54,661 nt of DNA from an uncultured Bacteroidales bacterium (GTDB lineage: Bacteria; Bacteroidota; Bacteroidia; Bacteroidales; Paludibacteraceae): assembly GCA_900319105.1 (NCBI GenBank), contig ONND01000011.1, positions 1 through 54,661 of the forward strand, written 5' to 3'. The notes beneath the pieces were generated by a model. The model made no database searches and was not told the DNA's origin. It was given only the letters and a program-made list of their open reading frames with translations. The position numbers were made by a program, and so were the translations under genes. Of this stretch, positions 5,302 to 23,394 are shown piece after piece (positions within the stretch are counted from its first letter, which is position 1; each line of letters begins with the position of its first letter).

Positions 5302-6928
5302 ACCGGCTTTAGTACTTTGTCTTTTATCCTTTATCCTTTGTCCATTGTCCGTCTCTGCTCAGAGACAGGCGACCTCGCGGGCGAACGAGTGCATCGATAT
5401 CTTCAACGATGTACTGCGCCAGGTGGACGTCAACTACGTCGATACCCTCAATTACGAGGATCTGACGGAGACCGCCATCAATGCGATGTTACATAAGATC
5501 GACCCTTATACGATCTATTATCCGAAGAAGAAAGACCGCGACCTGCGTATGCTGACCACCGGAAAGTACGGCGGCATCGGTTCGATCATCCAGCAAAGGA
5601 AGCCTACCCCTACCCCCTCCCTAAAGGGAAGGGAATCCGGAAAGATCAGCAAAGACAGCCTTTGGACCTATGCCGTTAATCCCTACGAAGGCAAGCCCGC
5701 CCAGCGCGCAGGCATCGAGGCAGGCGACCGTATTCTGTCCGTTGACGGCAAGACGACCAAAGGTCTCACCGTCAGCGAAGTGAGCAATCTTCTTCGCGGC
5801 GATCCCGGTACCACCGTGGTGTTGGAGATCGAGCGTGAGGGAGTGAAAAAGCCTTTCAAGGTGTCCATCGTGCGTGAAGATATCCATATGAAGCCTGTGA
5901 GCTATGCCACGGTCTTCCGCGCCGACACCCTCTCCCAACCTGTTGCCTATATCGCCTTCAATGAGTTTACGGAAGGCTCGGCTCAGTCGTTCACCAACAC
6001 ACTAGATGACCTCTATTACACGCACGGTGCGCGTCAGTTGATCATCGACCTGCGCGGTAACGGCGGAGGTATTGTGGATGAAGCCTTGCAGATCGTGAAC
6101 CTGTTCATCGATCGCGACCAGATGATCGTCGAGACCCGCGGTAAGACTGCACAAAGCAACCGTACGTACCGTACACGTAACAACCCGAGGTACAAAGAGT
6201 TGCCGATCATCGTATTAGTGGATAAGAACTCCGCATCGGCGAGCGAGATCGTCTCCGGTGCGTTACAGGACTTAGGCCGCGCCAAGCTGATCGGTCAACG
6301 GACCTACGGCAAGGGACTCGTGCAGAACGTGCGCCCGGTAGCGTACGGCGGACATATTAAGGTCACCACCAGCAAGTACTACCTGCCTTCTGGTCGCTGC
6401 ATCCAAGCGATCGACTATAGCGAGCGACAGAAAGGACATCAACTGAAACGCGACACCGCCGGAGGTATTCTGCCCGATATCGTGATCAAAGACAGCGCAA
6501 AAGTAGATATCACCTATACGCTATACATCAATAATTATTTCTTTGATTATGCGACGCGGTACCACCGTCTGCACGACAGTATAGCCGATCCGAAGAGCTT
6601 CGAGGTGACGGATGAGATCTTAGAGGATTTCTGTGCTTTCTTAGACGAACGCGGCTTCACGTACGAGACGGAGACCGGTAAGTTCTTCCAAGACATGCTC
6701 AAGATGGCGAAGAACGAAGATATCGACTCCGCCACCATCGCGCAGTTAGAAGCCTTAGAACCTGTTCTAAAGCCCGACTACCGCGCTGCTATCCAACGCA
6801 ACAAGAAAGAAATACAGGATTTTCTCGGCTCCGAGATCGTACTGCGTTATTACTACCAGAAAGGTCAGGCAGCGTACCGCCTCCGTTTCGACGACGAAGT
6901 GAAACGCGCCCTCAAGGAGTTACAGTAG
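5252..6928 (+). CDS. S41 family C-terminal processing protease with PDZ domain
   Basis: About 558 aa from ATG 5252; starts at 5216, 5258 and 5267 are also in frame. Signal peptide LLSFILCPLSVSAQ, then a PDZ domain (NPYEGKPAQRAGIEAGDRIL, DGKTTKGLTVSEV) and the S41 catalytic core: LRGNGGG, the Ser motif NSASASEIVSG and the Lys motif TYGKGLVQ. It cleaves C-terminal tails of periplasmic proteins. A palindromic element is inserted in frame between the N-terminal helical part and the PDZ domain (5601-5644, KPTPTPSLKGRESGK). The 3' end overlaps the converging DUF4832 gene by 9 bp. Confidence 0.92.
   Translation: MLMEKMSANLFRIHYDRPALVLCLLSFILCPLSVSAQRQATSRANECIDIFNDVLRQVDVNYVDTLNYEDLTETAINAMLHKIDPYTIYYPKKKDRDLRMLTTGKYGGIGSIIQQRKPTPTPSLKGRESGKISKDSLWTYAVNPYEGKPAQRAGIEAGDRILSVDGKTTKGLTVSEVSNLLRGDPGTTVVLEIEREGVKKPFKVSIVREDIHMKPVSYATVFRADTLSQPVAYIAFNEFTEGSAQSFTNTLDDLYYTHGARQLIIDLRGNGGGIVDEALQIVNLFIDRDQMIVETRGKTAQSNRTYRTRNNPRYKELPIIVLVDKNSASASEIVSGALQDLGRAKLIGQRTYGKGLVQNVRPVAYGGHIKVTTSKYYLPSGRCIQAIDYSERQKGHQLKRDTAGGILPDIVIKDSAKVDITYTLYINNYFFDYATRYHRLHDSIADPKSFEVTDEILEDFCAFLDERGFTYETETGKFFQDMLKMAKNEDIDSATIAQLEALEPVLKPDYRAAIQRNKKEIQDFLGSEIVLRYYYQKGQAAYRLRFDDEVKRALKELQ
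5313..5350. repeat. word repeat TTATCCTTTGTCCATTGTCC inside a signal peptide
   Basis: Five degenerate copies of CTTTRTCC/ATTGTCC encode the hydrophobic core of the S41 protease signal peptide. Same family as 2022-2050. Confidence 0.75.
5601..5644. repeat. GC-rich palindromic element inserted in the S41 protease
   Basis: The element reads AGCCTACCCCTACCC, then CCTCCC-taaa-GGGAAGGG, then AATCCGGAAAG. It shares its left arm and the right flank GGGAATCCGG with the element at 18540-18583, but is read in another codon phase (KPTPTPSLKGRESGK here, SPTLTLPLMGGNPGS there). Confidence 0.75.
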
Positions 6929-8449
6929 TTTGACGCCCTGCGTCGTATAAAAGGCATCGCCCTTGCGGATCAACAGATGACCGTTTCGCAACACTTTATG
7001 TACCTGCGGAGCGGTTTTTTGTAGGTCTATTCCCTCCCCTGCGGCGGGTACAACAGTAAGCGAAGCATTGAGGATGTTCATTCCCGTTATAGAATCCCAT
7101 GTACCTTCATTCGCAAAGCGCACGGCATAGCGCGGGTCAGCCGCCAGTTTATCGGAAGCATCCGGTAAGTACAGATATAGGTTGTATGTTCCGGCAGGAA
7201 CTTCATCCGGCAATGTGAGCGTCTCATCTATCGTCGTCAGAGCATGGTTAGGCGCCCAGCGACGGGGGTCAGAGGCTAACTGAAGGCGGAAAGTATCCTT
7301 CTCATTGCGCAGTACGATATACGCCGGACGTTCGTTATAGAGCGGTGCACAGCCTGTATTGCGCAGGCATATCTGTACCGGCATGGAGGATCCTACTTGT
7401 GCCGAATCCGGAAGAGAAGCCGTGACGAGTTGGAAACGATAGCCCAACACACGCTCCATCTCCGCAAAAGCTCCGTTAGTACGCCATTTATCCGTCACTT
7501 CTTCTGCGTATTGCGAACCGCAGAAGGTCCAATGGTAGCGACGTAACTCCGCCATGGTAGTGTCGTACTTCGCCACTATGCTTGCTAATGAATTTTGTTC
7601 TACATTTGTCTCACCACCATTAGGCACATAAAGCGTCTCTTGGGCGATGTAGTTTCGCAAAATAGGATCATCATCCGGTCCGTCGCCATTACGACCATAC
7701 GTACCATCATTACCCCATGCATTGAGGAACGCATCATTATGATGACCAATACGGGCACGTGCAGAAGAGGAATAAGCTTGTGCTGAATCAAGCGGTATTT
7801 CATCGCCTAAATACGACAGTTTAATCAGCGGATAGCGCACCAACAGGAAACGACCCGACGGACAAGCACTGATCAACGACTGCAGTATAGTGCGACGGTC
7901 AGGAGTCAGTTCCTGAGTCTCATTGCCGTAATTACTGCTATAATACCACTCGCCCCAACGACCTACAAAACCGGCTTCAAGGGCAAAAATAACATCTTTA
8001 TTGGACTCCAGGTGGGGTTTGAGTTGCTCTATATGACGCTTTGCCCAGGTGAGCGAGGCATCGGTCTTACTACTCCAGTCGTAAGCAAACCGCAGGACAC
8101 ATTTGAAACCATGATTGCGCAGGATCTGCATATCCTCGTCAAAGCCGGTCAGAATCTTATCCGACAGGTCTTTGGTCTTGTAGTTCTTGAGGTAATACAT
8201 CAGCATGACGAGGGACTGGTTCTTCCGATCCGGATAGTTCTCGTCCTCCTCGTCCCAGTACCACTCTTCCTCGGGTTTCACCACGTGATTCTTGGAATCC
8301 GACAGGGCAACATCTCCTCCTAATTGGTCGGTAAAACCGCGCTCCGGATTCGGGAAGACCGTTACATCATCCGCTTTGTAGGTGATGTCCGTTGCAGATA
8401 CAGTTAGAGCCAAGAGGCCTGCTGTGAGTAATAAGAATAAGCGTTTCAT
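6920..8449 (-). CDS. DUF4874/DUF4832 secreted protein
   Basis: 509 aa with a signal peptide (MKRLFLLLTAGLLALTVSA). NPERGFTDQL near residue 34 and the following TIM-barrel-like region (LRFAYDW, EAGFVGRWGEW) match the DUF4874 family. The C-terminal part (LRNTGCAPLYNERPAYIVL) matches DUF4832. These families are suspected glycan-active proteins but no activity is established. The end carries the tail LRNGHLLIRKG-x-YTTQGVK, almost the same as in the protein at 40651. It is the last gene of the steroid-reductase-like operon, 5 bp after the SDR gene, which is an odd partner. Confidence 0.85.
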   Translation of the reverse strand: MKRLFLLLTAGLLALTVSATDITYKADDVTVFPNPERGFTDQLGGDVALSDSKNHVVKPEEEWYWDEEDENYPDRKNQSLVMLMYYLKNYKTKDLSDKILTGFDEDMQILRNHGFKCVLRFAYDWSSKTDASLTWAKRHIEQLKPHLESNKDVIFALEAGFVGRWGEWYYSSNYGNETQELTPDRRTILQSLISACPSGRFLLVRYPLIKLSYLGDEIPLDSAQAYSSSARARIGHHNDAFLNAWGNDGTYGRNGDGPDDDPILRNYIAQETLYVPNGGETNVEQNSLASIVAKYDTTMAELRRYHWTFCGSQYAEEVTDKWRTNGAFAEMERVLGYRFQLVTASLPDSAQVGSSMPVQICLRNTGCAPLYNERPAYIVLRNEKDTFRLQLASDPRRWAPNHALTTIDETLTLPDEVPAGTYNLYLYLPDASDKLAADPRYAVRFANEGTWDSITGMNILNASLTVVPAAGEGIDLQKTAPQVHKVLRNGHLLIRKGDAFYTTQGVKLL

Positions 8450-8454
8450 TCGTA

Positions 8455-9282
8455 TTAGTGCATGAATTGGGCTAGTTTCTTTTGTGCCAGGAAAAGCATC
8501 CAGTCGGGCGTGTGGGTCAGAAGCGGTGTAGAGAGCCAGTTGAGGAATCCCGGTGTGTCCGCTTTCTTATTGCGGAACATCTTCTTCAATGCCCTCTTGA
8601 CAAGTTTCTCCGGCGGGATAGAGACGGTAAGCGCTACCGCTATCTTACGCCATTTGGGCGAGAGCCCGAAGAGTTCGGTGTCCACGGCGCCGGGCGCCAT
8701 GACGGTAATACCGACATTATGCGGCCGTAGTTCGTACCAGATGGATTTGGAGAAATTATAGATGAACGCCTTGGTAGCGTTATAGGTCTGAATACCCGGC
8801 ATCGCCATCCATGCCGACATGCTGCTCATATTCAATATATACCCGCGCATGCGTTTATGCCCGCATATACGCGAGTTGGCTTCCTCGGGCGTCAGTTCGC
8901 GCTTGACCATATCTTCGGCAAAGAGACGGGTCAGTTTAGCTACCGTGTTGACATGTAGCTGCAACATCAGGTCGATGCGTTTGAGGGATGTATCACAATA
9001 AGGGTTGAAGAAGAACACGCCGGCATTATTGATGAGTACATCAATGACGTAGCCGTTTTCCTTACACCATGCGTGTAAGTTCTCCGCTGCATCCGGCAGA
9101 CTGAGGTCCGCAAAATGTGCAACCGTCTTCACGCCGTAGGTCTCGGCTAAGTTCTTCGCTACCTCGTCCAACTCTTTTTGCTGGTTGCTGACGAGCAGGA
9201 GATCGCTATGATAATCTCGTGCGAGTTGGGTGGCGTACTGCAACCCAATACCGCTACTTGCTCCTGATACTAAGCTCAGCAT
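8455..9282 (-). CDS. short-chain dehydrogenase/reductase, candidate hydroxysteroid dehydrogenase
   Basis: 275 aa classical SDR. Cofactor glycine motif SGASSGIG near residue 7, NNAG near 86, catalytic Ser in NMSSMSA and the Tyr/Lys pair YNATK. Its start overlaps the end of the OYE gene by 29 bp, so translation is probably coupled. SDRs are substrate-diverse. The 3-hydroxysteroid dehydrogenase role is inferred only from the neighbours, an SRD5A-like reductase and an enone reductase, matching the known 3-beta-HSDH partner in gut Bacteroidales. Confidence 0.85.
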   Translation of the reverse strand: MLSLVSGASSGIGLQYATQLARDYHSDLLLVSNQQKELDEVAKNLAETYGVKTVAHFADLSLPDAAENLHAWCKENGYVIDVLINNAGVFFFNPYCDTSLKRIDLMLQLHVNTVAKLTRLFAEDMVKRELTPEEANSRICGHKRMRGYILNMSSMSAWMAMPGIQTYNATKAFIYNFSKSIWYELRPHNVGITVMAPGAVDTELFGLSPKWRKIAVALTVSIPPEKLVKRALKKMFRNKKADTPGFLNWLSTPLLTHTPDWMLFLAQKKLAQFMH

Positions 9283-10564
9283 CTTTCTCTAATTTAGCTA
9301 TTTCACGTTGAATACGAGGCGAGATGGGCTCTCCGTCGCGCTCTACGCACTCATGGCATTTCATATCCTTGGAGTACATGCGTCCTACGCAGTAGTTGGA
9401 GCGTTTACAGCCTGCATGGTAGTGCGGGTTCTCCTGTACATGCTTGACGAAATCGGGATCCTTGATGAGCACGTGTGCGATCTGGAAGAGTTCGAAGCCT
9501 TCGTCCATAATCTGCTGACAGTTATCGCCGCTCTGCACACCGCCGACGTAAATCAGTACGGGAGCCCCACCCGACCTCTCTGTAGAGGGGAGGAGATCTT
9601 CTGCTAATGCTTTTTGGAAGATCTTCGCTTTGTCCATGAAGTAGAGTTCCTTGAAGGGGACGGTAGGCGTCATGACGGCAGCTACGCCGGGGATGTTAAG
9701 CGCTGCCTTGAGCCACCAGAACGAACTCATCTTCATGTAGTGCGCGAGGGTCTTGTAGGGCATAGCGCCACCCAGGATCGTCATCGGCGAACGGCTCACG
9801 GTACCGCCGGAAAGGACGATACCATGTACATTATGCTTGGCAATCTCTTTGGCTACCTTGATGCCCTCTTCGATGCTAACGCCATGCCAGCAGTCATCCC
9901 ACATGTTGGTCTTAACGACCACCGCGATGTCTTTTCTGGCGTGCTCCATCACCTCGTCCAGCACTTCGTTCATGAAACGTGCACGGTTCTCAAAACTACC
10001 GCCGTACTCGTCATGGCGGTGGTTCGTGCGCGGTGAGAGGAACTGCGAGAGGAGATAGGCATGTCCAGCATGGATCTCCACGCAGTCAAAACCGCACTCA
10101 CGCGCCCAGTCCACCGCCTCGCCGAATTTCTTAACGAGGTTCTTTATCTCCGCCACTTTGAGGCGTCTATGGATCGTCGGGCTATAGAGGTTGAACCATG
10201 TATCGGCACTCACCGGCATACAATGGCAGGTATAGAAATGTGTCATGTTACCGCAGTGGCCGAGTTGGATAGAAGCCTTAGCGCCCTCTGCATGGATGGC
10301 GTCGGTCATCTTCTTCATATCCGGGATGATCTCCGGGCGCACGTAGAGCTGTCCGTCAAAAGAGACGCCGGATAGATCGACAGCGCAGTAAGCGACCGTC
10401 GTCATACCGACGCCGCCACGTGCCACTGACACATGGTAATCTTGGAGCTGCTGTGTAGGCGCATTTCCGCGCGCCATATTCTCGAAGGCCGCAGAACGGA
10501 TAATACGGTTCCGCAAAGTTATCGGCCCCAGTTGGAAAGGGGTAAAGAGTTTGTTATTGGTCAT
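9254..10564 (-). CDS. NADH:flavin oxidoreductase, old yellow enzyme type, candidate 3-oxo-delta4-steroid reductase
   Basis: 436 aa FMN TIM barrel. N-terminal FTPFQLGPITLRNRIIRSA, active-site region EIHAGHAYLLSQFLSP, DEYGGSFENRARF, and phosphate-binding region IYVGGVQSG. The C-terminus has four cysteines (GCKRSNYC...KCHEC) that could hold a [4Fe-4S] cluster as in 2,4-dienoyl-CoA reductase and BaiCD, but the protein lacks their extra FAD/NAD domains. A palindromic element (9561-9597) is inserted in frame, giving LLPSTERSGGAP before the phosphate-binding strand. In the operon context the enone C=C of 3-oxo-delta4 steroids or bile acids is the best substrate guess. Confidence 0.88.
   Translation of the reverse strand: MTNNKLFTPFQLGPITLRNRIIRSAAFENMARGNAPTQQLQDYHVSVARGGVGMTTVAYCAVDLSGVSFDGQLYVRPEIIPDMKKMTDAIHAEGAKASIQLGHCGNMTHFYTCHCMPVSADTWFNLYSPTIHRRLKVAEIKNLVKKFGEAVDWARECGFDCVEIHAGHAYLLSQFLSPRTNHRHDEYGGSFENRARFMNEVLDEVMEHARKDIAVVVKTNMWDDCWHGVSIEEGIKVAKEIAKHNVHGIVLSGGTVSRSPMTILGGAMPYKTLAHYMKMSSFWWLKAALNIPGVAAVMTPTVPFKELYFMDKAKIFQKALAEDLLPSTERSGGAPVLIYVGGVQSGDNCQQIMDEGFELFQIAHVLIKDPDFVKHVQENPHYHAGCKRSNYCVGRMYSKDMKCHECVERDGEPISPRIQREIAKLEKDAELSIRSK
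9561..9597. repeat. GC-rich palindromic element inserted in the OYE gene
   Basis: GAGCCCCACCCGACCTCTC-tgta-GAGGGGAGGAG on the plus strand, antisense to the gene. Same left arm as the elements at 3737 and 18540. It codes on the minus strand for a loop in the OYE protein, so elements are tolerated in both orientations. Confidence 0.65.
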
Positions 10565-10568
10565 AATG

Positions 10569-10597
10569 ATAGTCGACTAGTTGACTGGTGTACTAGT
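10569..10597. repeat. word repeat GACTAGTTGACTGGTGTACTAG
   Basis: Degenerate copies of the word GTCGACTAGTTGACT... fill the 28-bp gap between the 5-alpha-reductase-like and OYE genes and include the stop codon of the former. Confidence 0.6.
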
Positions 10598-11411
10598 AAA
10601 TAAAAGGAATAATACGTTTCAGTTTCTTACGATCAAACTCGTCGGGGAACTCTTCCTCGTATTTCTTGTAGATCGAGTTCGCCCGCGGCACAAGGTTGCA
10701 GCAGGAGAACCAGAAGAAGAGCAGTCCGGCAAGCGACCATGTGAGGATGGCAAAACCGAGCCACTCCGTGATCTCACCCAAGTAATTGGCACTGGTGACG
10801 TACTTGTACATGCCTTTCTTAGGCAGGTAATGGTTTGTGTCGCCGGGTTTGCGGAGATGGCGGATCACATAGTCCGAGTGCATGTTGATAACCCATCCCG
10901 TGAAGAAGATCATCGTACCGATGATAAACCTCGGGTCAGTAAGCCAAGAAACGGAATAGAGTTGGGAATAATACGGGTCCTGCGGCGCCAAATGGAAGAG
11001 CCAAAATCCCTGGATATAACCATTGATCAGATTCCAAACGACGGAGAGGATCATGATTGCCACCGGCATCTTACTCTTCCCCTTCAAGAGGAAAGGAAAA
11101 ATGAACGAGCGCTGGAAATAATGGAACTCAAAGAAGAGGAAGAAGAGCCAATACGGCGCATTTTTGACCGCTTCAGCCACCACCGGATCGGAGCTTCCCA
11201 TCGCCTTGAAATACTCATACCACACGACGAAAAAGACCGGACACTCCATCAGAAACCAGCCTACTTTGTTATTCAAGGCCGGTCCCCACTTCTCCGAACG
11301 CATCTTACCATAACCGGCATCCACGAAATAAAGGGACACAAAAACGACCAAGCCTATCAAGAACATGATAAAGAGCAGGTCGTAGAAAAAATCAATCGTA
11401 TAAATATTCAT
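10593..11411 (-). CDS. 3-oxo-5-alpha-steroid 4-dehydrogenase family protein (SRD5A-like)
   Basis: 272 aa membrane protein from ATG 11411; an upstream in-frame ATG at 11474 lies at the promoter. The C-terminal part YVTSANYLGEITEWLGFAI, TWSLAGLLFFWFSCCNLVPRA and KRIIPFIY matches the steroid 5-alpha-reductase domain almost residue by residue. Catalytic residues known from human SRD5A2 are kept: Glu57 corresponds to Glu56 (GWFLMECP) and Tyr91 to Tyr98 (FHYFQRSF); the Gln before the Glu is Met here. Six or seven membrane segments are visible. It is the first gene of the operon. It would reduce the delta4 bond of 3-oxo steroids to 5-alpha products using NADPH. Confidence 0.88.
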   Translation of the reverse strand: MNIYTIDFFYDLLFIMFLIGLVVFVSLYFVDAGYGKMRSEKWGPALNNKVGWFLMECPVFFVVWYEYFKAMGSSDPVVAEAVKNAPYWLFFLFFEFHYFQRSFIFPFLLKGKSKMPVAIMILSVVWNLINGYIQGFWLFHLAPQDPYYSQLYSVSWLTDPRFIIGTMIFFTGWVINMHSDYVIRHLRKPGDTNHYLPKKGMYKYVTSANYLGEITEWLGFAILTWSLAGLLFFWFSCCNLVPRANSIYKKYEEEFPDEFDRKKLKRIIPFIY

Positions 11412-11471: not shown

Positions 11472-11502
11472 CAAAGTTACGAATTTAAATTCGTATATGC
11501 AA
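11472..11502 (-). promoter_or_regulatory. promoter with palindromic operator for the steroid-reductase-like operon
   Basis: On the minus strand the -33 TTG is at 11502-11500 and the -7 TAACTTTG at 11479-11472, 23 nt apart. The spacer is not the usual A-tract: it is the perfect 18-bp palindrome TACGAATTTAAATTCGTA (11478-11495), which overlaps the first bases of the -7 box. This position fits a repressor operator. Confidence 0.8.
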
Positions 11503-11508
11503 GAAATC

Positions 11509-12456
11509 TTAATAATCGGAAACTTTTTCTTTCATTTGGCACACAAATAATCCGACAATTATTAATCCGATGCCTACCCATTTGGCGAGCGGGAGATGTT
11601 CACCGAAGAAGAGAAACATCCATAAGGCAGTAAAAGCAGGGCGTATATTATTGAACGCGTTCGCCTGGGTCACGCCTATCTGACGCAGAGCGTAGCAGAA
11701 GAGGATGAAGGCCGTGACACTCGCAAAAACCGTGAGATAGCCTACACTCCAAAGAGCGATCTGCGTCTGGGTCTCGTCGATCGTATAAAGGACCCTATGA
11801 AGCACTTCCGGTCCTTCCTTGAAATACCAGATCGGGAGGAAGAACATTAGACTGATGAGTTGGGTATAAAAAACGAAGGACAAAGAGCTGTATTTCGTCG
11901 GTGTTTTGCGCATCATGACTGAGTCAATCACAGCCGCCGAGACAGCAGAGAAAGCCATGAGAATTCCCCAGTAGTTTCCGATAGAATAGTTCTTCGCACC
12001 TACGAGCGTCAGTACAAACACACCAACGGTAGAGACAAGGATACCTAATATATTATTGCGTGAGATGCGTTCGTGCAAGATGATGGCAGCAAAGATGGGA
12101 CTAAGTAAGGGCGAGGTAGAAAGGAGTGTCTCTGCGATCGTAGGACTATTCAGCGCGTCGTAGGCGTACGTCTCGAGCATGTAATAAAGGAAAGGCTGGC
12201 AGAAACCCGCAATGAGAAAGAGGGGCAGATCCTTGAGTTCTATCCGCTGGAGGCTACTGAGCGAATGGCTGGGACTAATGATGCCGATAAGAAACATCAA
12301 GAGAACGGAAGGCACAAAGCGCATTACGATCATGGTAAAGGGCGGTAAAACAATCAAGGCTTGCTTGATGGCTATTCCGCTCACCGACCAGATGATCATA
12401 GAGATGATCAGAGCAATGATGGCCGCGATGTGTATTCTATTTTCTATAAGCGACAT
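11509..12456 (-). CDS. EamA/DMT family transporter
   Basis: 315 aa with ten hydrophobic segments in two repeats, the drug/metabolite transporter fold. Typical features are the SGIAIKQALIVLPPFTMIVMRF start, NSPTIAETLLSTSPLLSPIFAAIILHE in the first repeat and the second-repeat end QANAFNNIRPAFTALWMFLFFGEHL. Substrate unknown. It has its own promoter and lies upstream of the steroid-type operon, so a link with steroid transport is only a possibility. Confidence 0.88.
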   Translation of the reverse strand: MSLIENRIHIAAIIALIISMIIWSVSGIAIKQALIVLPPFTMIVMRFVPSVLLMFLIGIISPSHSLSSLQRIELKDLPLFLIAGFCQPFLYYMLETYAYDALNSPTIAETLLSTSPLLSPIFAAIILHERISRNNILGILVSTVGVFVLTLVGAKNYSIGNYWGILMAFSAVSAAVIDSVMMRKTPTKYSSLSFVFYTQLISLMFFLPIWYFKEGPEVLHRVLYTIDETQTQIALWSVGYLTVFASVTAFILFCYALRQIGVTQANAFNNIRPAFTALWMFLFFGEHLPLAKWVGIGLIIVGLFVCQMKEKVSDY

Positions 12457-18206: not shown

Positions 18207-18755
18207 ATGAAAATCATAGGCTTCGTATATAATCCTTTGTCGATGGTCGATCGTCGATGGTCGATGGTATTAAAAGGCGACAGTTGTCTGCTGAACGGCC
18301 GCAAGCCGATGTTCATTCCGGAATGGACGCAGGAGTTAGGTGTGACAGATTGCATCATCTTACGCGTCAGCCGCCTGGGCAAAGAGGTAGCCTTGAAATT
18401 TGCGGACCGCTATTACGACGCCATCGCTCCCGGAGCGGACTTCATCGCGATGGACACGCTTCGCGAGGCACAAGCGACCCAACAGCCGTGGACCAAAGCA
18501 TTGGCCTTTGATTATTCGCTGGCGATAGGAGAATGGAGCAGCCCCACCCTAACCCTCCCCCTGATGGGAGGGAATCCGGGAAGTCTTGTCCTCTCTCCTG
18601 AAGAAGCGATGGTAGAGGCGAGCAAGGTAATGACGATCCGGCAAGGCGATTTGATATATATCCAGCGCAGCCACGCACCACGGCCGGTACACAAAGAAGA
18701 AATCATACGGGTAGAGATAGACGGGGAAGAAAAATTATACTGTAAGATCAAATGA
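18207..18755 (+). CDS. fumarylacetoacetate hydrolase family protein, altered
   Basis: 182 aa. The FAH core is visible: KPMFIPEWTQELG, DRYYDAIAPGADFIAMDTLREA, PWTKALAFDYSLAIGEW and a C-terminal TIRQGDLIYIQRS. The N-terminus has NPLSMVDRRWSMVLK coded by a TCGATGG word repeat where the family has its substrate lid and a phenylalanine-methionine-lysine-proline motif. A palindromic element (18540-18583) inserts SPTLTLPLMGGNPGS after GEW. The metal-binding EXE region usual in active FAH enzymes is not obvious, so activity is doubtful. Confidence 0.7.
   Translation: MKIIGFVYNPLSMVDRRWSMVLKGDSCLLNGRKPMFIPEWTQELGVTDCIILRVSRLGKEVALKFADRYYDAIAPGADFIAMDTLREAQATQQPWTKALAFDYSLAIGEWSSPTLTLPLMGGNPGSLVLSPEEAMVEASKVMTIRQGDLIYIQRSHAPRPVHKEEIIRVEIDGEEKLYCKIK
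18239..18267. repeat. word repeat GTCGATGG x4 in coding sequence
   Basis: GTCGATGGTCGATCGTCGATG then GTCGATGG codes for SMVDRRWSMV in the N-terminus of the FAH-family protein. Confidence 0.85.
18540..18583. repeat. GC-rich palindromic element inserted in the FAH-family gene
   Basis: AGCCCCACCCTAACCCTCCC-cctgat-GGGAGGG then AATCCGGGAAG. Left and right flanks match the element at 5601-5644. It encodes SPTLTLPLMGGNPGS in frame. Confidence 0.8.
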
Positions 18756-21700
18756 GAAAAATCATTTTCATAGTACTATTAGCACTCAGCCTGCCGATGA
18801 TGGCCGGCATCCACACGTATGCAGATCAATCGATTCTGAGCAGCGGCAAATGGGTGAAGATCCGCGTCAGCGAATCCGGTGTATGCCGCATGAGTTTCGA
18901 GCAGCTAAGTGAGGCAGGTCTCAATCCGTCGCAAGTACGCGTCTTCGGTTATGGCGGTGCGATGCTCAAACAGGATTTCACGAAAGCCAAGATAGACGAC
19001 CTGCCACAAGTACCGGTTTATGTCGGATCGGACTATGTGCTGTTCTGGGTACAAGGTCCTATCAGTTGGGCGTACAACGGTTCGCGCTTCACGCACACCC
19101 GCAATACTTATTCTAATTACGGCTACTATTTCCTGACGGATAATATAGGGACACCCTTGGCTCCGCCCACCGGCGATGCGATCAGCGGCACTCCGACAGA
19201 GATCACTACCTACCCGTTCTATCAGGTACATGAGAAAGACTCGATCAACCTCATCGACCGCACAGGTATCGTAGGAGGCGGCCGTGAATGGTACGGCGAG
19301 CAGTTCAGTCCAAGTCAGCGCCGCACAGTCACTTTCTCAACGCCTAATGCGCTGACCACGGAAAAAAGTACCGCCTATATTGATGTAGCCAGTGCGTCCA
19401 ATGTGGCAGCAGCGACTTTCCGCAGTTCTTTCAACGGAAGTTCGGCATCGGTCAGTGTACCGACTATCAGCGGCCCGGAGGCCAACTATATCTTTGGAAC
19501 AGCCGCCAGTTTGAATACCTCTGCGACGTCGGCTTCATCGCGCCAACAGATCCAATTGACTTATCAGAACTCGGATGCCAGTTCCTTAGGTTGGCTCAAC
19601 TATATCGAGTTAACGACCCCCAGTGCGTTGAAAATGACCGGCAGTTTTATGCCGATCCGCACGAAGGAGAACTACTATACGACGACTCCTGTCCGTTTCC
19701 ACCTCAGCGGCGCCAACAGCGCTATGCAGGTATGGGACATCACGGATCTGAGTGCCATCAAACGGATGCCGACGACCCTCAGCGGCACAGAAATGCAATG
19801 GACGGGAACTCAGCAAGACGGCATCCATGAATACGTAGCCGTCAATCCGGCAGGTTCGTCCTGGGTAAGCGCAACCGTTATAGGCCAGATAGCCAACCAG
19901 AACCTCCATCGCCTGTCGAACATCGACTACGTGATCATTTGTCCAAGCGGCTACGAATCCATCGCACAGGATTTGGCCAAAGTACATGAGCAGAAAGAAG
20001 GCATCACCTGGGCCGTTGTAACAGATCAACAGGTCTATAACGAGTTCTCGTCCGGTACTCCGGATGCGACGGCTTACCGATGGCTGATGAAGATGCTTTA
20101 CGACCGCGCGGACGGCAATGCGATACAGAAACCCCGATGGCTGCTTTTAATGGGTCATGGTACGTTTGACAATCGCAAACTGCTATCCACCTCCGGCGCT
20201 GCAACGCTGCTTACCTATCAGGCGAAGAACTCGCTCAACGAGGTGAAAGCCTACGCGACGGATGACTACTTCGGATTCCTGGACGACAACGAAGGCGAAT
20301 CGGATATCACAGGACGAATGGATATCGGTGTAGGTCGTTTACCCGTAAGCAGTACCGATGAGGCACGTGCGGTAGTGGACAAACTGATTCGTTATATCCA
20401 GAATCCCAATGCCGGCAAATGGAAGAGCCAACTCGTTTATTTGGCTGACGACGGCGAAAACGGAGCCCATACCCAAACGGCAGAAACGAGCGCTGAACTG
20501 GTTCGTTTAGCCAATCCGGATTTTGTTGTGACAAAGATTTTCCTGGATGCCTATCCCCAAGAAGTAACCGCCAGCGGCGAGAGTTATCCTGTAGCAAAGA
20601 ATAAAGTAGCCCAACTGCTGAAGAACGGAGTGTTCCTCTTCGACTACTCCGGCCACGGCGGATATAACGCTATTACCAGCGAGTCTATTCTCACGCTCAA
20701 GGAGATAGACGCCATGCGTAATGAGAACTTAGGGTTCTGGCTCTTCGTCACTTGTAATTTTGCTCAGTACGACGGCGGTAAGCGTTGTTCCGGTGAAGCA
20801 TGTGTGCTCAACCCGAACGGCGGTGCCGTAGGTCTCTTGGCCGCTACACGTACCGTTTATGCTCCGGGAAACACCCAACTCAACCGCGCTGTATGCTCCG
20901 AACTCTTTGCCCATGAGAACACTTGCCACTATGAGGCCACCTTGGGCGAGGCGATTATGAGAGGTAAGAACCGACTTGGCGCGAACGACAATAAGATGTC
21001 CTATGTGCTCTTTGGCGATCCGGCTATGCGACTCAATTATCCGACGAATTACCAAGTAGCAACGACCTCCGTCATCGATACCCTGCATGCTTTGGATGTA
21101 CACCAGGTAAAGGGTCAGATCGTAGATGAAGACTCTATTCTCGTCTCGGATTTCAACGGCTCGGTAGATGTCACCGTGTACGACAAGATCCAAGAGATCC
21201 CGACGCGGGATAACGATCAAGCAGGCGGTGAGGCGGAAGTGGTGAGCTACAAGGATTATCCGAACACCCTGTTCTCCGGCAAGACCACCGTCAAAGACGG
21301 TTTATTCCAATACACCTTCATGGTACCCAAAGACATCCGCTATAACTACGGCAACGGTCGAATCGTCTATTATGCCCGCACGTCTCAGGAAGAAGGGACC
21401 GAAGAAGCTATCGGTCATTTCGAAGACTTCATCATCGGCGGTTCGGGTACTTCCTCCATTTTGGCGGACACCGTAGGTCCCGAGATGACGATTTATCTCA
21501 ACACCCCGTCTTTCCGAGACGGCGACAAGACCTACTCCACTCCGCGTTTCTTTGCCGATCTGTACGACGAGAACGGAATCAACACCGCCGGTGCCGGTAT
21601 CGGGCATGACCTGATGCTTGTGGTGGACAATGATGCCAAGAAGACTTATTCGGTCAACGAATACTTCACCTCTGCCAACGACAGTTACCAGCAAGGTCAG

Positions 21701-22108
21701 GTAAGTTACCTGATGAACGAGCTGGCGGACGGTCCGCACACCCTGACTTTCCGTGCATGGGACTTGCTCAATAACAGCACCACCAAGAGTCTTAATTTTG
21801 TTGTAGAAGCGGGCATCGATCCGTCTATCTACTCCGTCACGACCTACCCGAACCCTGTTCGTGCAGCAGGTGTGCTGAATATGATTGTTCATTATGATCA
21901 ACCGGATGAGTTGATCCAGACCCAGATATATCTGTACAACACCAACGGTCAAGTTATATGGAAGCAGGAACAGGGCAATCCTGACCAGGTTTCACTCCAG
22001 TTGTCCCAGATGGGTCTCCAACCCGGCGTCTATTTCTACAGCGTTCGGATCAAATCCGAGGGTAGCAAATATGCCAAGTCGTCCGGTAAGATTATTGTCG
22101 TCAAATAA
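18752..22108 (+). CDS. porU: type IX secretion sortase PorU
   Basis: 1118 aa secreted C25-type cysteine protease. PorU cleaves the C-terminal domains of type IX cargo and attaches the cargo to A-LPS at the cell surface. Signal peptide, PorU N-terminal region (GKWVKIRVSESGVCRMSFEQL), then the gingipain-like catalytic His in YSGHGGYNAITSES and Cys in FVTCNFAQYDGG. The last ~80 residues (TYPNPVRAAGVLNMIVHY ... LQPGVYFYSVRI) form a type IX C-terminal domain. ATGA overlap (4 bp) with the preceding gene indicates coupling; porV follows 98 bp later. Confidence 0.93.
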   Translation: MRKIIFIVLLALSLPMMAGIHTYADQSILSSGKWVKIRVSESGVCRMSFEQLSEAGLNPSQVRVFGYGGAMLKQDFTKAKIDDLPQVPVYVGSDYVLFWVQGPISWAYNGSRFTHTRNTYSNYGYYFLTDNIGTPLAPPTGDAISGTPTEITTYPFYQVHEKDSINLIDRTGIVGGGREWYGEQFSPSQRRTVTFSTPNALTTEKSTAYIDVASASNVAAATFRSSFNGSSASVSVPTISGPEANYIFGTAASLNTSATSASSRQQIQLTYQNSDASSLGWLNYIELTTPSALKMTGSFMPIRTKENYYTTTPVRFHLSGANSAMQVWDITDLSAIKRMPTTLSGTEMQWTGTQQDGIHEYVAVNPAGSSWVSATVIGQIANQNLHRLSNIDYVIICPSGYESIAQDLAKVHEQKEGITWAVVTDQQVYNEFSSGTPDATAYRWLMKMLYDRADGNAIQKPRWLLLMGHGTFDNRKLLSTSGAATLLTYQAKNSLNEVKAYATDDYFGFLDDNEGESDITGRMDIGVGRLPVSSTDEARAVVDKLIRYIQNPNAGKWKSQLVYLADDGENGAHTQTAETSAELVRLANPDFVVTKIFLDAYPQEVTASGESYPVAKNKVAQLLKNGVFLFDYSGHGGYNAITSESILTLKEIDAMRNENLGFWLFVTCNFAQYDGGKRCSGEACVLNPNGGAVGLLAATRTVYAPGNTQLNRAVCSELFAHENTCHYEATLGEAIMRGKNRLGANDNKMSYVLFGDPAMRLNYPTNYQVATTSVIDTLHALDVHQVKGQIVDEDSILVSDFNGSVDVTVYDKIQEIPTRDNDQAGGEAEVVSYKDYPNTLFSGKTTVKDGLFQYTFMVPKDIRYNYGNGRIVYYARTSQEEGTEEAIGHFEDFIIGGSGTSSILADTVGPEMTIYLNTPSFRDGDKTYSTPRFFADLYDENGINTAGAGIGHDLMLVVDNDAKKTYSVNEYFTSANDSYQQGQVSYLMNELADGPHTLTFRAWDLLNNSTTKSLNFVVEAGIDPSIYSVTTYPNPVRAAGVLNMIVHYDQPDELIQTQIYLYNTNGQVIWKQEQGNPDQVSLQLSQMGLQPGVYFYSVRIKSEGSKYAKSSGKIIVVK

Positions 22109-22206
22109 AATCAATTGTATAACATCAATTAGTCTGTTTATGCCTATGAAGCAAATCGCTTGAACATTTGAAACTGAATTAAAAATTAAAAACAAATAAC
22201 ATCACA

Positions 22207-23394
22207 ATGAAAAAAATTCTTATTTCTCTCGCAGCCTTATTGTGTCTCTCTACGAGCATAAAGGCTGTCGATGACACGATGAACCCGTTGATTACGGCTA
22301 TGCCGTCACTCTCGATTGCTCCGGACGCCCGTGCAGCCGGTATGGGTGATGTAGGTGTAGCTACGGAGGCAGATTTTAACTCGCAGTACTGGAACCCAGC
22401 CAAGTACGCATACATGTACACGAAGGGTGGTATTACGGCTAACTACACGCCGTGGTTGCGTAAACTCGTAGGCGATATCGACCTGGCTTACCTCGCCGGT
22501 TTCTATAATTTCGGTGACCTCGCCGGTGGTATCGGTGCCAGCTTTACGTATTTCTCGATGGGTGATGTAGCGCTGACGGACGCTCAGGGTCAAACCCTGC
22601 AGAACGTACGTCCTAACGAGTGGGCTCTCGACCTCAGTTATTTCCGTAAGTTACATGAGTACGTATCGATGTCTGTTGCCGTTCGTTTCCTCTACTCGGA
22701 CCTCAACAACGGAGTGAACAGTACTGCTACCGGTGCCACAGAGATGCACCCGGCCTGGACGATGGCTGCTGACATTGCCTTGTACTACAAGCAGCCGATC
22801 GAGTTGCCGATGGGTACGAGTCACTTCAGCCTCGGTTTCAGTCTCAAGAACCTCGGTGGTAAGATGACGTACGCTGACGACGGAAGCAGCAACTTCATCC
22901 CTGCGAGCATGAACCTCGGTGTAGGCTATGAGTTGCCGTGCGACCAGCATAACTTCCTGACCTTCAATTTGGAGACCAATAAGCTGTTGGTACCGAGCCG
23001 TAAGTCCAAGTTTGCTCCGGACGAGACGACTCACCAGTACACCCAAGAGCAGTACTCTCAGATCAACCCTGCCAAAGGTTGGTTCCAGTCTTTTGCAGAT
23101 GCTCCGGGCGGTGCGAAAGAGGAGTTCAACGAGGTACGTTGGGGTGCAGGCATCGAGTATAGCTACAACAAGCAGTTCTTTGCCCGTGCCGGTTACAGCT
23201 ACGAGAACTACTACAAAGGTAACCGTAACTACATTACCTTCGGTGCCGGTTTCCACCTCTCGATCGTAACACTCGATGTATCGTACTGCGTAGGTCTGGC
23301 AGCCACCAACCCGCTTGACCAGACGATGCGTTTCACGCTGGGCTTCGACCTCTATGGAATCAAGGACCTCGTGAACAACCGCAAGAAGAAATAA
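22207..23394 (+). CDS. porV: type IX secretion outer-membrane protein PorV
   Basis: 395 aa FadL-like barrel with a signal peptide. N-terminal pattern PLITAMPSLSIAPDARAAGMGDVGVATEADFNSQYWNPAKYAY is diagnostic of PorV. PorV takes type IX cargo from the SprA translocon and shuttles it to PorU. porU and porV side by side is common in Bacteroidota. The 98-bp gap before it holds only AT-rich sequence (ATTAAAAATTAAAAACAAAT) and no consensus promoter. Confidence 0.92.
   Translation: MKKILISLAALLCLSTSIKAVDDTMNPLITAMPSLSIAPDARAAGMGDVGVATEADFNSQYWNPAKYAYMYTKGGITANYTPWLRKLVGDIDLAYLAGFYNFGDLAGGIGASFTYFSMGDVALTDAQGQTLQNVRPNEWALDLSYFRKLHEYVSMSVAVRFLYSDLNNGVNSTATGATEMHPAWTMAADIALYYKQPIELPMGTSHFSLGFSLKNLGGKMTYADDGSSNFIPASMNLGVGYELPCDQHNFLTFNLETNKLLVPSRKSKFAPDETTHQYTQEQYSQINPAKGWFQSFADAPGGAKEEFNEVRWGAGIEYSYNKQFFARAGYSYENYYKGNRNYITFGAGFHLSIVTLDVSYCVGLAATNPLDQTMRFTLGFDLYGIKDLVNNRKKK

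Follow-up and report, generated by a model that had tools for sequence, protein, structure and literature searches.

Gene layout and conservation of the operon

The window analysed here, i.e. the whole of contig ONND01000011.1 (54,661 nucleotides, nt), stems from an uncultured Bacteroidales bacterium of the Paludibacteraceae (GCA_900319105.1) with a genome of 2.26 Mb that is 90.8% complete. Its minus strand carries a gene for a membrane protein related to steroid 5-alpha-reductases (5AR), followed by genes for an old yellow enzyme (OYE)-family flavin mononucleotide (FMN) reductase and a classical short-chain dehydrogenase/reductase (SDR). We regard this operon as a probable redox module for steroid ring A (see below). 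The following features are considered, with lengths in amino acids (aa).

10593..11411, minus strand: 5AR, SRD5A-like membrane ene-reductase, 272 aa (PF02544, PDB matches)
9254..10564, minus strand: OYE-family FMN reductase, 436 aa (PF00724)
8455..9282, minus strand: classical SDR of the SDR-A type, putative 3-hydroxysteroid dehydrogenase, 275 aa (PF00106, tree placement)
6920..8449, minus strand: DUF4874-DUF4832 protein, optional last gene, 509 aa (Pfam)
11472..11502, minus strand: promoter-like element TTG-N20-TAnnTTTG upstream of 5AR (pattern scan of relatives)
11478..11495, no strand: 18-nt palindrome within the promoter spacer, proposed operator (arm-pair statistics)
11509..12456, minus strand: EamA/DMT-family transporter, conserved neighbour, 315 aa (PF00892)

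The order of transcription is EamA, 5AR, OYE, SDR and DUF4874-DUF4832. EamA and 5AR are separated by 97 nt, 5AR and OYE by 28 nt, and SDR and DUF4874-DUF4832 by 5 nt; the OYE and SDR genes overlap by 29 nt. The original prediction placed a unit of four genes with overlaps or short gaps at 6920–11411 of the minus strand. These coordinates and the strand are correct, and the gene calls are backed by Pfam matches above cut-off to Steroid_dh (PF02544, E = 6e-41), Oxidored_FMN (8e-56), adh_short (3e-32) and, for the fourth gene, DUF4832 (2e-51) and DUF4874 (4e-42). All four genes are thus present; the conserved core, however, comprises the three genes 5AR-OYE-SDR, with DUF4832 as an optional addition (see below).

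Conservation was assessed in the best 80 of 128 related stretches in named genomes (loci numbered L). The closest named relatives of the window 5AR (93%) are metagenome-assembled genomes (MAGs) of uncultured Bacteroidales, and many further relatives are labelled Paludibacteraceae of ruminant origin in their record titles, in which "RUG" presumably denotes rumen genomes. By tblastn, 77 of the 80 relatives have a full or partial OYE downstream of 5AR and 74 have an SDR; 5AR, OYE and SDR recur in the same order in 74, which is beyond chance. Counting complete open reading frames (ORFs) only gives 75 for OYE, 73 for SDR, 69 for EamA and 10 for DUF4832; in L048, L073 and L075 the locus runs off the contig. 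Within the genus of the window, 5AR was detected in 111 of 121 sampled genomes, and in 51/52 of the genomes with a completeness of 90% or more and a contamination of 5% or less.

A profile of 16 5AR sequences matched 90 of 393 sampled Bacteroidales genomes (numbered G) at E <= 1e-20. The matches fall into a high-score class (at least 295 bits; 49 matches in 47 genomes) and a low-score class (at most 241 bits; 44 matches in 43 genomes). OYE and SDR were searched for in 62 of the 90 genomes (every high-class genome and 15 low-class ones), and adjacency was counted over the best 53 OYE and best 48 SDR rows; the weakest 11 and 10 rows were omitted, none of them beside a 5AR as judged by eye. In 40 of the 47 high-class genomes, an OYE follows 5AR on the same strand at a distance of up to 4 kb (in 34 of these, within 60 nt of the match ends), and an SDR is also present within 6 kb in 27 of the 47. 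The 5AR-OYE adjacency spans 39 genomes and 15 Bacteroidales family codes, in a tally without one case separated by 2.2 kb. None of the 15 low-class genomes showed the adjacency within 4 kb; in two of them (G075 and G271) an OYE follows on the same strand 9.2 kb downstream. The order 5AR-OYE-SDR recurs across families in the genomes analysed. At the clustering used, no additional neighbour family occurred in more than two of the 20 loci from other genomes.

Sequence features of the three enzymes

The window 5AR scored 142 bits against PF02544 in the genome search, above the curated cut-off. Its best PDB matches are the bacterial PbSRD5A (7c83, E = 1e-52) and human SRD5A2 (7bw1, 4e-39), and a worm enoyl-CoA reductase appears as a weak match (3e-7). 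A Foldseek search returned 7c83 and 7bw1 as the only matches at E <= 1e-3, with TM of about 0.5. The structure models are weak (pLDDT 64 for 5AR and 66 for OYE) and served for fold matching only, being unsuited to pocket modelling. The proposal that E56 and Y98 correspond to E57 and Y91 of human SRD5A2 is borne out by alignment with 7bw1, and both residues are kept in 109/109 homologues aligned (codons 11244–11246 and 11118–11120, respectively). According to the SRD5A2 studies in the sections cited, changes of E57 or Y91 abolish or strongly lower activity (PMC7815742, PMC7591894). A phage collection searched for 5AR at E 1e-10 gave no match.

The catalytic-type residues H165, H168 and Y170 of the OYE are retained in 102/102 aligned sequences. 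The C-terminal Cys cluster noticed earlier (C386/C392/C403/C406, located at approximately 9347–9409) is real: C386, C392 and C403 are constant in all rows of the 102-sequence alignment that are not gapped at these positions. At C406, genomes outside the group of the window have C, H, K, N, D or V, and the steady motif is C-x5-C-x10-C followed by H, with Y in 2 of 29 rows with letters. The best NCBIfam match is to the BaiCD model NF041087, at 182.2 bits relative to a cut-off of 825 and covering positions 2–255 of 642. Judged from this match the OYE is not BaiCD-like in architecture, as the second domain of the model was not found. The Firmicute 5-beta-reductases BaiCD and ci2350 (NF041087; the relevant part of PMC12238238) share the OYE barrel and the catalytic Tyr with the window protein, which differs in its length of 436 aa, its C-x5-C-x10-C motif and, in a match made by eye, its pocket residues (see below).

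Database matches of the SDR are to generic SDRs only. Its classical motifs are intact, with G7/G11/G13 in 83/83 rows with letters and S154/Y167/K171 in 87/87. In the tree, the window SDR groups with the SDR beside an OYE in Parabacteroides distasonis (support 100/100), apart from a second, very different type; we label the two types SDR-A and SDR-B. The window has one SDR, in contrast to 6 of 20 other-genome loci (L117, L118, L119, L123, L124 and L126) in which SDR-A and then SDR-B follow the OYE. Perhaps SDR-B is the opposite 3-hydroxysteroid dehydrogenase (HSDH).

Promoter-like element and palindrome

Scans for sigma-70 promoters and terminators gave no excess over shuffled sequences. The pattern TTG-N20-TAnnTTTG, which we take to be the -33/-7 pattern of Bacteroidota, is found upstream of 5AR in 69 of 81 sequences (the window and 80 loci). 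The spacer is 20 nt in all 69, with 17–23 allowed in the scan. The same pattern is found in 0/75 cases upstream of OYE and 0/73 upstream of SDR, and the background with a 17–23 spacer amounts to 93 of 3400 random 150-mers from the same loci. Among the loci from other genomes, 6 of 19 show the pattern within 150 nt of 5AR, and the palindrome only in L112, which belongs to the same genus.

The spacer contains the palindrome ACGAAW-N4-WTTCGT, which we report here as a candidate regulatory element. All six arm pairs match in 41 of the 69 5AR promoters and at least five in 47. The matched arms take several forms (ACGAAA/TTTCGT, ACGAAT/ATTCGT, ACAAAA/TTTTGT and ACTAAA/TTTAGT). Rather than an operator, the palindrome could be a by-product of the AT richness of promoter spacers inherited from a common ancestor, a reading we consider rather unlikely. 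Against it, of 148 further pattern matches in these loci and the window, which are not proven promoters, 0 have six pairs and 2 have five. Moreover, the arms change together: perfect arms occur in 41 of 59 promoters, compared to a mean of 15.3 and a maximum of 24 in shuffled sets. The 5AR tree provides 5 and 4 independent pairs in which the other arm never goes the opposite way; with so few pairs, sign tests give p = 0.0625 and 0.125. In favour of the by-product reading, 12 of 59 promoters in the foregut-rich lineage (see below) score below five of six, and a tally of 19 exact sites in 20 genus genomes puts 11 before 5AR and 8 elsewhere. The latter include sites before unrelated genes (TamB-like and NadK-like, named by eye) and one inside a gene. 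Given these 8 other sites, it is unproven that the operon has a regulator of its own, and the flanking genes scanned yielded no regulator candidate. The window genome itself holds one exact site (zero mismatches), namely that in front of 5AR, and two one-mismatch sites, which represent no excess over a reversed-pattern control.

Foregut-rich and hindgut-rich lineages

Compartment labels were counted by eye from record titles, and a label gives the sampling site, not where the cell lives. Among the 62 loci with a 5AR at least 79% identical to that of the window, a compartment is given for 14 (foregut in 12, duodenum in 1 and colon in 1). The 18 less similar loci include 15 with a named compartment, of which 2 are foregut and 13 hindgut. 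The foregut-rich lineage has the palindrome (at least five of six pairs) in 47 of its 59 promoters, the hindgut-rich lineage in 0 of 10. In hindgut-rich L063–L069, L072 and L074, the OYE is 62–64% like that of the window, and 5AR and SDR 71–75%. The 5ARs of this lineage adjoin those of L073 and G383 (support 97/89 in a 59-row tree and 86/80 in a reduced tree), a grouping that the corresponding OYEs reject (approximately unbiased (AU) test, p = 7e-7). This incongruence suggests that in one lineage the OYE was displaced or old paralogues were sorted. The foregut/hindgut difference is one evolutionary contrast, not many.

Neighbouring genes

The association with a secreted DUF4832/DUF4874 protein as fourth gene, which the original prediction put forward as its novelty, turned out to be a sporadic add-on. 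A complete DUF4832 gene is found in the 10 relatives counted above, on the same strand after the SDR and within 23 nt of it in 9 of the 10; L021 has a DUF4832 fragment only, elsewhere and on the opposite strand. This low frequency rules out a core partner and marks DUF4832 as an optional accessory. The N-terminus of the window protein resembles a signal peptide by eye, and its gene overlaps a convergent S41 protease gene by 9 nt at the 3' end. No PDB relative was found up to E 10. Two papers mention DUF4832 (in passages), one context being Pel polysaccharide clusters and the other a dockerin-bearing cellulosomal protein from the rumen, and from these contexts a carbohydrate role may be guessed.

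The EamA gene, absent from the original prediction, lies in the co-directional orientation in all but one of the 69 relatives that have it; in that one it is on the opposite strand. A promoter-like element separates EamA from 5AR in the window, as it does in 65 of 68 co-directional cases, and hence EamA as first gene of the operon is not the simplest reading. The window EamA has its own promoter-like element starting 66 nt upstream of the ATG, such an element being present in 9 of 68 cases. In the close relatives L002, L004 and L008 (around 6001), EamA overlaps the start of 5AR and the 5AR element is missing, so that both genes must be on one transcript there; these three are among the 12 sequences without the element. 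An EamA gene is also found near the Phocaeicola cluster (see below), on the opposite strand. Elsewhere in the window, at 18752–23394, a C25 peptidase with a type IX secretion tail is followed by PorV, which we take to be a PorU/PorV-like pair.

Counterparts in human-gut species

Two human-gut loci are homologous to and syntenic with the window operon. Phocaeicola massiliensis holds a 5AR (51–54%), an OYE (52%) and an SDR-B in one record filed as a plasmid. In P. distasonis, the OYE WP_005861966.1 (51.5%) is directly followed by the SDR-A WP_009276610.1 (37%). This pair has the same order as in the window and lies on the SDR-A side of the tree, but differs in that no 5AR match was obtained in the 13-kb locus or in the whole 117-kb record. 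Both stretches (L132 and L133, respectively) contain housekeeping-looking genes and are filed as circular non-mobilizable plasmids.

Clusters of 5-beta-reductase (5BR), 5AR and 3beta-HSDH in Bacteroidetes are described as producing isoallolithocholic acid (isoalloLCA; in the parts cited of PMC12697870 and PMC9645264), and a three-enzyme ring-A model is likewise given for gut Bacteroidetes (PMC9645264, PMC10672800). For P. distasonis, conversion of 3-oxo-delta4-lithocholic acid (3-oxo-delta4-LCA) to 3-oxoLCA by a 5-beta-reductase is reported, with LCA forms interconverted by HSDHs (PMC11647740). A table in one review assigns 5-beta-reductase to Firmicutes only, lists P. distasonis under 3alpha- and 3beta-HSDH, and places P. 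goldsteinii, B. theta and A. onderdonkii under 5-alpha-reductase (PMC12692668). No accession of an assayed gene for these clusters was found in the literature searched. From synteny and taxonomy we infer that the OYE corresponds to the reported P. distasonis 5BR.

Next to one another on one strand, the window carries the three gene types by which a Bacteroidales 5AR/5BR/3beta-HSDH cluster is recognised. The predicted likeness to bile-acid clusters is supported for the arrangement, which extends to 15 family codes and to human-gut species; bile acids as substrate are doubtful. Relative to the isoalloLCA clusters as described in the cited parts of PMC12697870 and PMC9645264, the gene types and their adjacency are common; the window differs by its ruminant lineage, the palindrome in the spacer, the optional DUF4832 and a doubtful substrate.

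Proposed function

In summary, the window contains a real, conserved operon of a known general kind in a new host group; it has a newly observed candidate regulatory element and a partly non-canonical 5AR. We consider it probable, with considerable reservation, that 5AR-OYE-SDR, together with DUF4832 in the window, form one transcription unit for an operator-controlled ring-A steroid redox module in a rumen Paludibacteraceae-like genus, with plant steroids as usual substrates. The reactions, their directions, the substrates, the role of the operator and the regulator are what we infer from the data above. The membrane 5AR would use NADPH as hydride donor for C5 of a 3-oxo-delta4 steroid, giving the 5-alpha product, while E56 and Y98 hold the steroid carbonyl. 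With FMN, the OYE would reduce this enone to the 5-beta product, or operate in reverse and feed 5-beta steroids to 5AR. The SDR would interconvert 3-ketone and 3-alcohol, and the palindromic operator may allow a substrate-sensitive regulator to control the unit. The resemblance of 5AR to solved steroid 5-alpha-reductases speaks, at the level of sequence and fold, for such a steroid module. Also in its favour are the retained E57/Y91 equivalents, the 5AR-OYE adjacency in most high-class genomes, the occurrence of 5AR in 111 of 121 genus genomes, and the OYE-SDR pair of P. distasonis, a species for which formation of 3-oxoLCA from 3-oxo-delta4-LCA is reported (PMC11647740).

Plant steroids (sapogenins, phytosterols) appear the most likely usual substrates, since most close relatives with a compartment label come from the foregut. 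In the rumen, which is located upstream of the bile duct, bile acids should be scarce and plant steroids are likelier; given the proximity of the window organism to ruminant Paludibacteraceae-like MAGs, it is unlikely to act on bile acids as a rule. Sheep convert sapogenins through oxidative and reductive steps into smilagenone, smilagenin, epismilagenin and tigogenin (in the section cited of PMC10385484), the set of products that would be expected of a ring-A module of this kind. Similarly, 5-beta stanols dominate in herbivore faeces, as expected from phytosterols (PMC6366745, in part). On rumen sapogenin and sterol reduction, the literature searched gave chemistry and no enzyme. An endogenous hopanoid or sterol substrate was discarded, as the squalene-hopene cyclase family PF13243 has no match in the window genome (own genome only, 91% complete), so that nothing points to a polycyclic triterpenoid made by the cell itself via this enzyme.

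Several observations weigh against the assignment as a plant-steroid module. The SRD5A2 structure paper gives a signature Q56-E57-Y91 and eight NADPH-binding residues, and in the same paper Q56A/L killed activity (PMC7815742, sections cited). The window 5AR shares with human SRD5A2 and PbSRD5A the PF02544 domain, E57, Y91 and seven of the eight NADPH residues, and differs by Q56 to M and H231 to I. The equivalent of Q56 is M55 in 37/37 high-class and 12/12 low-class Bacteroidales rows examined, so that the published Q-E-Y signature reads M-E-Y. This exchange speaks against a textbook SRD5A enzyme, and we class the 5AR as a PF02544 homologue that may work like SRD5A1/2, not as a confirmed SRD5A1/2-type enzyme. 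The NADPH-binding H231 is I or L in 37/37 high-class rows (I247 in the window) and His in 10/12 low-class rows; the window protein thus lacks the full set of the SRD5A1/2 type, and the lost His sets the high-score class apart. The original prediction was to fall if the closest characterised homologues were fatty-acid or phenolic enone reductases, and the outcome went neither way: the nearest structures are steroid 5-alpha-reductases for 5AR, and general ene-reductases for OYE. The OYE pocket, matched by eye, has A169/Q174 in place of N166/S171 of a Firmicute steroid 5-beta-reductase (PMC12238238, in part). L071, L080 and L081 have a 5AR with neither OYE nor SDR nearby, and 7 of the 47 high-class genomes (G001, G003, G120, G148, G218, G299 and G363) have no adjoining OYE; G001 is without an OYE match, and some of the other six have an OYE on a different contig. 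Finally, a number of related MAGs are of hindgut origin, a strong match to the bile-salt-hydrolase family (above 200 bits) occurs in 6 of 61 genus genomes, and the literature searched contained no enzyme of this clade shown to act on a sapogenin or sterol.

The main alternative is a bile-acid cluster, in which 5BR opens 3-oxo-5-beta substrates to 3-oxo-delta4 and 5AR and 3beta-HSDH close these to isoallo products, kept for the lower gut or by descent. Its gene set is that of the described Bacteroidetes clusters (PMC12697870, PMC9645264 and PMC12692668, parts cited), and the P. distasonis and Phocaeicola loci as well as the hindgut MAGs of the family carrying the operon agree with it. Against it stand the foregut labels on most labelled close relatives and the shift in palindrome and OYE type between the foregut-rich and hindgut-rich lineages. 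Furthermore, the window genome (90.8% complete) has no match to the bile-salt-hydrolase family, and the 18 of 61 genus genomes with a match comprise 12 weaker or partial ones besides the 6 strong ones. The foregut labels and the bile-salt-hydrolase data make a bile-acid substrate doubtful, and we hold this alternative to be unlikely. Least probable is a non-steroid enone or isoprenoid substrate (a plant terpenoid or an endogenous polyprenoid lipid), with the fold used as in SRD5A3, which reduces polyprenol (PMC7815742, in part), or in enoyl-CoA reductases: M-E-Y for Q-E-Y, the lost H231, the weak worm enoyl-CoA reductase match and a near-universal 5AR in the genus would suit it, but steroid 5-alpha-reductases are the best matches by far with E57/Y91 kept, homologues in 90/393 Bacteroidales go against a general endogenous role, and P. 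distasonis, for which 5BR activity is reported (PMC11647740, in part), has the OYE-SDR pair in a record with no 5AR match.

Returning to the plant-steroid module, a wider scenario is speculative and, in our view, doubtful as a whole. In this scenario, an operator-controlled core pathway of a large rumen genus would reduce ring A of plant steroids in the forestomach prior to absorption and would be the source of both the 5-beta (smilagenone/smilagenin) and the 5-alpha (tigogenin) sapogenins of sheep. The secreted DUF4874-DUF4832 protein, where present, would free the aglycone from saponins or steryl glycosides, and the bile-exposed hindgut-rich sister lineage would have exchanged its OYE and either lost the operator or never possessed it. 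The contrast between foregut and hindgut in palindrome and OYE type offers a natural experiment on substrate choice, albeit with a single contrast only. The literature looked at, as far as the cited parts extend, discusses steroid reduction by gut Bacteroidales in terms of bile acids and human hormones. A near-universal, separately promoted ruminant copy would make plant steroids of the diet the more likely original substrate, and the operon would open rumen sapogenin and sterol reduction to genetic study.

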